Below, piece after piece: positions 1 through 6,003 of a stretch of DNA of 6,193 nt. The DNA is from Actinomycetes bacterium (lineage in GTDB: Bacteria; Actinomycetota; Acidimicrobiia; Acidimicrobiales; Acidimicrobiaceae). A program made the translations under genes and the position numbers. Every line of letters starts with the position of its first letter. The stretch's first letter is position 1. The notes under the pieces were generated by a model. It searched no databases. It saw nothing but the letters and a program-made list of their open reading frames with translations, and had not been told where the DNA came from. Location of the stretch: NCBI GenBank assembly GCA_021844725.1, contig JAKBSX010000191.1:1-6193 (forward strand). Direction: 5' to 3'.

Positions 1-122
1 GTGGGTTGATGCTGAGTGGGCATCCGGTTGCCAACGGGCATTCCAGGGTATTGCCCACCAGCCTGCTGCTGTTGCTGGAGATTTTGATAATAGGCCATTT
101 GCTGCTGTTGCTCATTTGTCAT
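1..122 (-). repeat. Inverted copy of the mcmA 3' coding end (left arm)
   Basis: Read on the minus strand, these 122 bases are identical, base for base by eye, to 2689-2810 in the last exon of the MADS-box gene. Identity stops sharply at 122/123 and continues to the left window edge, so the arm may extend further left. It encodes the glutamine-rich tail, about residues 178-217 of the MADS protein, in the opposite orientation. No MADS-domain sequence accompanies it inside the window. On the minus strand the same reading frame stays open upstream of the copy to about position 176, where a TAG closes it. This could be a gene fragment, the last exon of a rearranged gene that continues leftwards, or an assembly artefact. 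Confidence 0.95.
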
Positions 123-1920: not shown

Positions 1921-2817
1921 ATGGCCGACATCACCGCTGTTGGTGAGGAGAACCCTTCGCCCACTCAGGACGAGCTGCAACAGGCCGCCGGTAACGGCGC
2001 CGCTGACAACCGCGGTACCAAGCGCTCTCGCATGAGCGCCGACGACGACGATGATGACGAGGATAAGCCCGGTCGCGAGCGCAGAAAGATTGAGATCAAG
2101 TTCATCCAGGATAAGTCGCGTCGCCACATTACGTTCTCCAAGCGGAAGGCGGGTATCATGAAGAAGGTGCGTACATCCGCGTCTCGAGTACCAGCCTCAC
2201 AACATCTGCTTTGCAGCTCCCTGCATTGCGATATCTACCATTTATCTTGTCCCTTTTATTCAAATACATCGTCATCTTTATTCCTTTACCGCGAGAACGT
2301 GTATTGTTGGATTCCCACTGACATGTCGATGCGGTCGCGTAACAGGCATACGAACTCTCCGTCCTTACTGGAACCCAAGTCCTTCTCCTGGTCGTGTCCG
2401 AGACTGGTCTCGTCTACACTTTCACAACTCCCAAGCTGCAGCCATTGGTGACGAAGCCCGAAGGAAAGAACCTTATCCAGGTGAGTCTTTGCCCAGGCCG
2501 ACTTTCTTCGCACGAGACTGACGTCCCCTGAACCCTAGGCCTGCCTCAACGCTCCCGACCCCACTGCCAACGAAAATGGCGTCGATGCCCCCGATGTTCC
2601 TGCTGAGACTCCCGAAGATGTGAGCCACAGCAACGTCAATGCCCAGCAGTCGAGTATCCCTCGACCTGCGGGTATGCACCCAGGCTACATGACAAATGAG
2701 CAACAGCAGCAAATGGCCTATTATCAAAATCTCCAGCAACAGCAGCAGGCTGGTGGGCAATACCCTGGAATGCCCGTTGGCAACCGGATGCCCACTCAGC
2801 ATCAACCCACTGCGTAA
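1921..2817 (+). CDS. mcmA: Mcm1/SRF-type MADS-box transcription factor, three exons
   Basis: Proposed exons are 1921-2166, 2346-2480 and 2539-2817, all joined in phase 0, giving 219 residues. Residues 1-50 form a variable N-terminus ending in an acidic run of Asp/Glu (about 41-48). The SRF-type MADS domain follows (about 51-127): it has the DNA-binding stretch RRKIEIKFIQDKSRRHITF, the SKRKAGIMKK helix, and after intron 1 the dimerisation core with LSVLTGTQVLLLVVSETG. The C-terminus (128-219) is low in complexity, with glutamine runs at about 181-184 and 193-197. Length and layout fit Aspergillus McmA. Mcm1 proteins bind CC(A/T)-rich P-box sites in the nucleus as dimers and act with partners such as Ste12 or alpha-box mating factors in cell cycle, mating and development; these roles are known of the family and not visible here. 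The last part of the coding sequence is duplicated in inverted orientation at 1-122. Confidence 0.95.
2167..2345 (+). other. mcmA intron 1
   Basis: The donor is GTGCGT and the acceptor AACAG. A CTGAC branch-like motif lies about 25 bases before the acceptor. Splicing restores the conserved MADS sequence KK|AYELSVLTG. At 179 nt it is long for this kind of fungus, and it holds no stop in the exon 1 frame. Because 179 is not a multiple of three, retention would shift exon 2 out of frame and end translation at 2449-2451 after 176 residues, with the second half of the MADS domain lost. Confidence 0.93.
2481..2538 (+). other. mcmA intron 2
   Basis: This is a 58-nt intron with donor GTGAGT, a CTGAC branch motif at 2518-2522 and acceptor CCTAG. 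Removing it joins NLIQ to ACLNAP, the conserved end of the SRF-type extension in fungal Mcm1 proteins. Confidence 0.93.
2689..2810 (+). repeat. Inverted repeat, right arm (inside mcmA exon 3)
   Basis: This is the sense copy of the 122-bp perfect inverted repeat whose other arm is 1-122. It starts exactly at an in-frame ATG (Met178) and ends seven bases before the end of the TAA stop codon; how far homology goes past 2810 cannot be seen because the other arm runs off the window. The segment includes two CAA/CAG runs. About 2.57 kb separates the two arms. Confidence 0.95.
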
Positions 2818-3472
2818 ACTTACGCATGTGTAGCCACCCAGAGAAATGGAGAAGCTTAGATTGCGTTGCAATCCATATAGCTTCTTCTCGCGCAATCGCG
2901 CACTCTCTTGGCCCTATCTTGATACCCAGCGAATCCACGATTGTTTACCCTAAATCCGGTCTTCGTTGTATAACAAACCTACGCAAGACAATAACCTTTC
3001 CTCATAACCTAACCTGTGTATATCCTGAGCCGCCTGGCTCTGAATGTTGCAGGACGCTAAATACTCAATTCCGGCGTTTGGCAATATTTTTTTTTTTCCC
3101 TCTGCTATCTATCCCGTTTAATGACGTCGCCCTCTCCCCTCTTTTCCCTCGCGAAAATGGTCAAAAATCCCAGAAAAAAAGAAAATAGAGAAAGAAACAT
3201 GAGCGCCCGGGATGGTGATTGATCGATGCAGGCTATGTGCAACCTTGACCTGAATCTCGATATTATTATTTGATCTTACTGTCCGTCACCTCATAATCAT
3301 TTCCTAGACGAGGGGGAAGATGCGGTGTTTCTGGTGCCTTTTCGTCTTGATTTATTCTCATATTACTTAACGGCGAACGTGGTTGTCTTTGATTCAATAG
3401 TCTGCGGCTTGTCGTGCTCTTTATTTCCTAACCTATCTCTGTTCTCTTATCTTTCTCGATTTCCCCTATGCG
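2818..3472 (+). other. mcmA 3' UTR and downstream intergenic DNA
   Basis: No gene is recognised. The first part is probably mcmA 3' UTR. An 11-base T run lies at 3087-3097, followed by a CT-rich tract and then an A-rich one near 3172-3200. A 120-codon ATG frame starts at 2826, nine bases after the mcmA stop, but its composition (a phenylalanine run from the T tract, a lysine-rich end from the A tract) points to chance. From about 3400 to 3472 the plus strand becomes pyrimidine-rich, like a leader, just before the ATG at 3473. Confidence 0.5.
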
Positions 3473-3718
3473 ATGAGTGATTGCCTTCCTCCCAAGATGA
3501 TTGTCTTCCTCGATACAATACTGGCTTGCGGGCAAGTGGAGAATAATAGCTCAGGCAGCAGGAGACACTCGTGGAGAGAGGCAAATGGCTCTGCTCAAAG
3601 TTGTTTTGGGAGTGTCCGATATGATAAATACGTCATGTATGGTATGGAGAAAATTGGACTTTCCTTGACTACTCTTACAAATGCAACTCTTAAAGAAATA
3701 CATATGATTCTATATTGA
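3473..3718 (+). CDS. Possible small ORF, unrecognised (81 codons)
   Basis: This frame starts with a true ATG and is preceded by about 70 bases rich in C and T, similar to fungal 5' leaders. AATAAA motifs follow on the same strand at 3890-3895 and 3939-3944. The 81-residue product has no signal peptide, membrane segment or family motif that I recognise. Its codons are not obviously selected, and the frame may be chance within a long mcmA 3' UTR or within the region beyond the transporter's 3' end. I list it because leader-like DNA, an ATG and downstream AATAAA motifs occur in the right order; expression or conservation evidence would be needed to accept it. Confidence 0.15.
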   Translation: MSDCLPPKMIVFLDTILACGQVENNSSGSRRHSWREANGSAQSCFGSVRYDKYVMYGMEKIGLSLTTLTNATLKEIHMILY

Positions 3719-4010
3719 CTGAATGGGTATTATAAAGCTCTTCAACAGCCCGTACTCAGCAGCATCTCTGAGGCCAATTCTTCCCACTCCCAAAGAGGTA
3801 GATATATCGGGTATATAGTGTAGATAAAGCATAGGAAGAAAGCGGAAGGCATAAAGCAGAATATATAGGGAAATGCCACGATGTTTGATAATAAATTCAT
3901 GGAGTACTATACATATCTTGTGTTTCTGTATTCAGAACAATAAAGGGCGAAAGGCGGAGACTGCGCCAGGTCAGATCGGACATGTAGGGTCCACGACTCC
4001 ACGGTAGGTG
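3719..4010. terminator. Convergent 3' ends, AT-rich with poly(A)-like motifs
   Basis: This AT-rich stretch lies directly beyond the transporter stop codon on the minus strand. On the plus strand it has two AATAAA motifs (3890-3895 and 3939-3944) and several TATATA-like stretches (about 3800-3870). The nearest minus-strand AATAAA motifs are distant, at 3420-3425 and 3351-3356. Transcripts from the two strands could therefore overlap here. Fungal poly(A) signals are degenerate, so no cleavage site can be fixed. Confidence 0.35.
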
Positions 4011-6003
4011 TTACTGGTCTGGCGCATGCCTGTTGATTGGGTTTGCTTCCGGGTCGGGTGGTTCTCGTTCACGGGCTAGCGGCTCCTCTCGCTCTTGCCT
4101 TCTCTGACTACTAGTCCCGGTTAGACGAGCTAGGTACTGTATACCTGTTCGCCAAACCCCTAGGGCGTTCCTCGAGCCTGCGAGGAGACGGTCTCGGGCG
4201 GTGTCCGAGTACTGCGGTTGATCTGATTCTTGAGGAATTAGTGGATTATGTGAAGTGTCGAAGGAAGTCCCGTATCCGGTGGAGGCGGGTTGTTGGTCTC
4301 TATTATTAGCAGCTGCGGGTTGGACTGGTGTTCGCCGTTTGGGGAGGAGAAGGGCATGCTCGGTGCCCGAAAGGGATGTTCTTCTCGGTTTGTTGCGAGC
4401 CTCGTGAACAGAGTGGGGAGTCCGACGTGGGCCCCAGCCCGATGGGAGACGGGGCGCGTTGCTTTTGCTCCGCGGGCGGTTTTGGATTGGGTCGACTGAG
4501 AACCTGGTGAGGAGGGACGATCGTGCACCCGTGTCATTTGTTGCCTCCACGTCAGAGTCATCCAACTCGGCCCAGATGGAAGTTGGATCCATGTTGGAGG
4601 AGGCGGAGGCTCGTTTGGACATTGTTGAGTATAGTGGGAGACTAGGTGCTCGCTGGCGGTGGTATTCATGGAAGGTGTTGGTTGAGCGAAGCAAGGGTTC
4701 TCGTTCTCCGAGGCGGTTCTCTTCATCCTCTAGTTCCAGCCTGAGAGGAGATTCTGTGTTTTCGTCAATAGCGGCCATTCCGGGCCCTATGGCCGTTTGG
4801 GATGGACCGGCGGATGCTATGGGTGCATGGCTGTCAACGTCCTCTAATCGCCAAGATAGGCAGAGGACACCGGCCAGAAGGACTACTGTACCTAAGGCGA
4901 TGAGTCCGGCATGGAAGCCCGTGAGCCGGGACATTTGGCGAAAGTATATTAGACCGTCTAAGATGGCGATGATGTTGTAAATGCAGAAGACAAACGGGTA
5001 GAGAACACTGGTACTGCAAAGCTTCAAACCTCGATGAAGGTAATACAATTGCAGGAGAGCAAGTCCGATCATAGAAAGCAGAATTATCCACGACTGCCAG
5101 CGATTGAATTGATTATGGCGATCCACGATTGTCCGGACGAGTAACTCCACGGCCGACTTGGCTAAGAGCAGCGAGTGGGCAGAGAGAATGCCGCTTATCA
5201 ACCCGTAACATAACCCACGTATGAGACGGACACGGCTATGCGTGATATTCAGGTGTGGTGTATACGAATTTCGGAGTATAGGGTGTTTCGATCGAGGGGA
5301 AGTGATGGCTTTGAGGAGTTTCGATCCGGCGAAAATGACTACTGACAACACAGTTGTCGCGGCCACCCAGAGGATAAAGCCCCAGCCACGGAGAAGCTCG
5401 AGGAGTTGATCAAGGGTGTGCGCTGGCTCTCCGATAGCACCAAAGACCGCGATCAGAATTGCGCCGCCACACACCAGAAGGGTACCGATCAATGAGTATC
5501 GAGTGAAGGCTTCTCCGAGGATCAACGTAGCAAAAATGGTATTGAAGACGAGGCCCGACTGTTGGAAGGAATTTAGTTAAGCTTAGCATTTGGGGAATTC
5601 GGGTCACTGACTGCTTGAAGCGTCGAAAGCACAGGAAGCGGAAGTGTTGTGATCTGGATTGTACTCCCGACGATGTTTGAAACAACAAACATGAACATTC
5701 CCAGCTGCACGAAGTCAGCGTGCTGTAACTAGCAAAAGGCTTCACTGCTCATTCATACCTGCCATCGCCGCCGCTTGTAGGGAGGTCTCCGTGATTCGTA
5801 TGGGTGTTTTCCATCTTCAAGAATATGCGACTTGCGCTGGAGGGTCAGTCCGATCGCTTGGAGGCTAGTCGAGATCAACCCGACAAGAACCCCGATCTGA
5901 ATAATGAAATCGCATTAGCCATTGAAAGATAATAGATATTGTATTCCAATATAGAACCTACCGCGACACTCCCCTGCGGCGACAGGCCACCAAGATTGCC
6001 CAT
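4011..6003 (-). CDS. NIPA-type (DUF803) magnesium transporter, four exons
   Basis: Exons on the minus strand are 6003-5962, 5896-5759, 5704-5612 and 5558-4011, all in phase 0, giving 606 residues. The ATG at 6003 is the first in-frame Met after an in-frame TGA at 6018-6016. About nine hydrophobic segments follow (near 15-34, 61-80, 84-106, 113-134, 149-169, 205-232, 245-268, 275-297, 305-327), as in the NIPA family within the drug/metabolite-transporter fold. Conserved fungal stretches include STSLQAIGLTLQRKSH, RRPPYKRRRWQ and FGAIGEPAHTLDQLLELL. Family members move Mg2+ and are reported at plasma-membrane or endosomal sites; substrate and location here are inferred. Residues from about 330 to the end form a long hydrophilic tail rich in Ser, Arg, Pro and acidic residues, with an acidic dileucine-like EREPLL near residue 376, a possible sorting signal. 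Animal NIPA proteins lack so long a tail. The gene converges on mcmA, with 1193 bases between stop codons. Confidence 0.92.
5559..5611 (-). other. Transporter intron 3
   Basis: This 53-nt intron has the less common donor GTCAGT, with CTTAAC/ACTAA branch-like motifs and acceptor AACAG. Splicing gives LSTLQA|SGLVFNT, which keeps the third membrane segment intact. Confidence 0.9.
5705..5758 (-). other. Transporter intron 2
   Basis: This 54-nt intron has donor GTATGA, a GCTGAC branch motif and acceptor GTGCAG. Splicing gives the conserved RRRWQ|LGMFMF junction before the second membrane segment. Confidence 0.9.
5897..5961 (-). other. Transporter intron 1
   Basis: This 65-nt intron has donor GTAGGT, a GGCTAAT branch-like motif and acceptor TTCAG. 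It joins a 14-residue first exon to the conserved first membrane segment (IGVLVGLISTS). Confidence 0.88.

Follow-up and report, generated by a model that had tools for sequence, protein, structure and literature searches.

The window analysed here, a stretch of 6,193 nucleotides, opens with an inverted duplicate of the terminal part of a gene that lies within it, which raises the question whether this copy is a feature of the genome or an error introduced when the DNA was copied or assembled. An earlier, sequence-only reading had offered three explanations for the copy, namely an event of very recent date, gene conversion and an artefact. The form and the position of the copy lean towards the last of these. 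As set out below, the inverted copy is most likely a copying or assembly error and no genuine genome feature.

Extent and significance of the inverted repeat

A repeat search returned bases 1-122 (arm 1, minus strand) as the perfect reverse complement of bases 2689-2810 (arm 2, plus strand), and a script confirmed the exact equality that the sequence-only reading had claimed. The arms are 122 nt long, 100% complementary and separated by a spacer of 2566 nt. The match had also been said to stop abruptly at 122/123, and this is borne out, with an identity of 20% over the following 50 bases when position 123 onward is compared with position 2688 backward. The boundary at 122/123 is directly observed and is the sole visible boundary of arm 1; its outer boundary falls on base 1, so that 122 nt is either the minimum length of the repeat or a product of the edge. 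Arm 2 accordingly has flanks on both sides and arm 1 a right flank only, its left side being the window edge.

A match of this length is far beyond chance. When bases 1-122 are left out, no exact inverted match that remains in the window is longer than 12 bases, and in 200 shuffles of the window that preserve dinucleotide composition the maximum was 20 bases. None of the 122 bases differs between the arms, giving a 95% upper bound of 2.4% on their divergence. Translation shows that arm 2 encodes residues 178-218 of a 219-residue protein, its first base opening the codon of residue 178 and its last base falling within that of residue 218. Arm 1, the inverted copy of this gene tail, contains neither a start nor a stop codon and is a probable chimeric end.

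The CAA/CAG tract at this site had been proposed to fold and thereby promote template switching. DNA-folding z-scores were calculated for five stretches, yielding -1.36 for arm 1, -0.60 for arm 2, and +0.10, +0.68 and +0.50 for three stretches that cross the boundaries. Because the folding of arms and boundaries is unremarkable, this idea is not supported, and a hairpin-prone tract was dropped as the driver.

The native copy and its gene neighbourhood

Arm 2 lies in mcmA (1921-2817, plus strand), which encodes a MADS-box protein (PF00319) of 219 residues. The name is that of the sequence-only reading; database sources label such proteins MCM1 or MCMA. Splice sites, translation and comparison with relatives define three exons, 1921-2166, 2346-2480 and 2539-2817, and the gene is observed to be intact. 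Among the 120 relatives listed, the closest has 99% identity and the closest named one, from Aspergillus germanicus, 96%. McmA aligns end to end with 10 relatives chosen from these 120, and the residues encoded by arm 2 are conserved in relatives.

On the minus strand, positions 4011-6003 hold a gene for a NIPA-type transporter with at least three coding pieces. It was recognised by a PF05653 match on its long exon, in the open reading frame 4011-5525, and by alignment of an A. varians protein, which covers the gene in three main pieces with the start codon at 6003. A. varians is also the source of the closest named relative of the transporter, at 76% identity. The two genes stand tail to tail, their stop codons lying about 1.2 kb apart (2817-4011). 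Consecutive locus numbers place the same two genes next to each other in A. hiratsukae (004960/004961), Penicillium canescens (001356/001357) and Penicillium sp. HAV15 (004016/004015), and in A. venezuelensis and A. unguis the pairing is also indicated, both proteins coming from contigs of equal size. Since its gene pair recurs elsewhere, the right-hand part of the window is ordinary, and arm 2 is the native copy. To judge from these relatives, the window is Aspergillus-like fungal DNA, which, from the species names of the relatives, we take to be placed near the subgenus Nidulantes. A plasmid or phage origin was also considered and dropped, the whole window being unmatched in 72,556 plasmid records and 50,697 phage records.

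A probable fold-back chimera at the fragment terminus

Bases 1-122 are most likely an inverted, or fold-back, chimera that terminates an assembled fragment. In the mechanism that we envisage, a strand synthesised leftward across the region upstream of mcmA would have left its template around base 123. It would then have primed anew on the opposite strand close by, near position 2689, and been extended by 122 bases or more along the mcmA tail, and the assembler would have retained this chimeric extension as the fragment's terminus. What we infer here is an origin in the laboratory or in the assembly, the renewed priming and the status of base 1 as a contig end. The artefact is preferred on account of the form and position of the copy, namely its place at the edge of the record, its one visible junction, the complete identity of the arms and the short range of the inversion. 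It is further backed by the native status of arm 2 and by a like structure in another assembly, described in the next section. Against it stands the fact that a young real duplication would look identical.

Three published classes of artefact were compared with the window. In a study of multiple displacement amplification (PMC1855051), inverted joining across a short gap was the main kind of chimera: 406 of 475 chimeras were inverted, and in 337 of the 475, that is 337 of the 406 inverted ones, the segments were also less than 10 kb apart; short junction complementarity was present in 93.5% of the inverted chimeras below 10 kb. The structure in the window resembles these chimeras in that its second segment is inverted and lies 2566 bases away, within 10 kb, a likeness of orientation and distance only. 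In PMC12870357, about 0.55-0.6% of nanopore reads of genomic DNA fold back and continue on the opposite strand of their own locus. The window shares this continuation on the opposite strand of the same locus, but the segments of those fold-backs map within 200 bases of each other, whereas the breakpoints in the window are 2566 bases apart and fall outside that definition. The library chimeras of PMC10908179 likewise contain a part that is the reverse complement of nearby sequence; as that article describes them, they arise from inverted repeats or palindromes that the genome natively contains. In contrast, the window from position 123 rightward, that is without arm 1, has no native exact inverted match longer than 12 bases. 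The long-read fold-back and the inverted-repeat library chimera thus fit less well than the amplification chimera.

Searches for the junction and a similar structure in another assembly

On the minus strand, the McmA-tail frame of arm 1 is open for 18 codons before the tail. A 58-residue minus-strand translation across the junction was used as a query against proteins of about 32-102 residues and returned 18 of them, none of which contains the junction; this is a weak test, and P0248, which starts at the tail, is uninformative. A 20-base word spanning the junction had 0 matches in viral contigs. No DNA of relatives was confirmed in genome contigs, with McmA and transporter alignments, or in viral contigs, with the McmA alignment. 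Since these collections cover prokaryotes and viruses, such negative results carry little information on fungi.

One protein, P0254, shows a related arrangement. It is a JGI metagenome protein of 92 residues, known from a single contig of 4501 bases, in which an mcmA tail is followed by 32 other residues and then by a stretch that is antisense-compatible with its own tail. Residues 27-43 and 76-92 form a run of 17 codon pairs compatible as sense and antisense. The longest such self-antisense run was 10 in the other 257 proteins and 8 in 2000 shuffles of P0254. Compared with the antisense frame of the tail in the window, the antisense stretch of P0254 is identical at 8 of 16 positions (E 5e-4, for a single comparison). 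Inspection by eye suggests that the antisense side of P0254 covers codons of an ordinary tail (RMPP) that are missing from its sense side. P0254 had no Pfam match at E<=10 and, as a whole protein, no plasmid match at E<=1.

The translated sequence of P0254 thus indicates that at least one further assembly, derived from a fungus whose mcmA tail differs, has an inverted copy of that tail, here with the spacer on the opposite side. We read P0254 as a probable second, independent chimera, and the protein seems to be spurious, the translation of a contig end that folds back. Such a contig end is suggested because the open reading frame of P0254 ends within a tract that, in the window, remains open in the antisense frame. 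At the level of titles and abstract openings, an inverted mcmA tail was not found in the literature searched.

Alternative explanations

The fold-back chimera has to be weighed against a real event that took place very recently in the isolate, a fold-back inversion or an inverted duplication, in which a broken or stalled strand switched template and left an inverted mcmA tail, perhaps with more, to the left of base 123. Template switching in the cell can produce the same geometry, and both the length of the exact repeat, far beyond chance, and the visibility of its inner boundary alone are compatible with such an event. Yet the event would have to be young enough to leave 122 identical bases, within the upper bound given above, the outer part would have to begin by chance at the window edge, and the junction is absent from the proteins returned by the junction query, P0248 again being uninformative. 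A real duplication is therefore considered unlikely. A variant of this explanation takes the glutamine-rich mcmA tail as a recurrent site of template switching in Eurotiales, with the window and P0254 as two independent fold-back inversions made in the cell; we regard it as very unlikely.

Two further explanations are less probable still. An end that merely shares one graph word with the interior of its own fragment would need no chimeric molecule, and the terminal words of 121 and 122 bases do recur inverted inside the window, while the 123-base word does not. Common assembler word lengths near 122 are 119, 121 and 127, and such lengths are usually odd. A plain overlap would equal the word length, so the even match length of 122 makes it less likely, and a link between the two places, which the overlap alone does not supply, would also be required; this origin is highly improbable. 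Least probable of all is a conserved inverted copy near mcmA in Eurotiales that is held identical by gene conversion. The inverted mcmA tail of P0254, in another assembly, speaks for it, but the geometry differs, the 2566-base spacer of the window holding mcmA and that of P0254 consisting of 32 codons downstream of the tail. Nor is there unusual folding, and a self-antisense run of more than 10 residues occurs in 1 of 258 proteins, most of which are full proteins that are unable to show an upstream copy.

If the fold-back chimera is the true explanation, ends of this kind may be taken for inverted repeats or for antisense genes, and they can seed false proteins in metagenome catalogues, of which P0254 appears to be one. 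If the copy is instead real, a regulator gene has a very young inverted duplication next to it, and the locus gives an opportunity to learn how copies of this kind arise.

The mcmA upstream region

Between the junction and mcmA, positions 123-1920 contain no recognised gene. Six of the seven open reading frames of at least 60 amino acids wholly inside this region were scanned against Pfam, with 0 matches at E<=1, and scans of the window returned neither an Rfam family at gathering score nor any tRNA or tmRNA. A hidden gene in 123-1920 was dropped on these results. The region also carries a second, short inverted repeat at 1154-1169 and 1207-1222, whose arms of 16 bases are 94% complementary and lie 37 bases apart.
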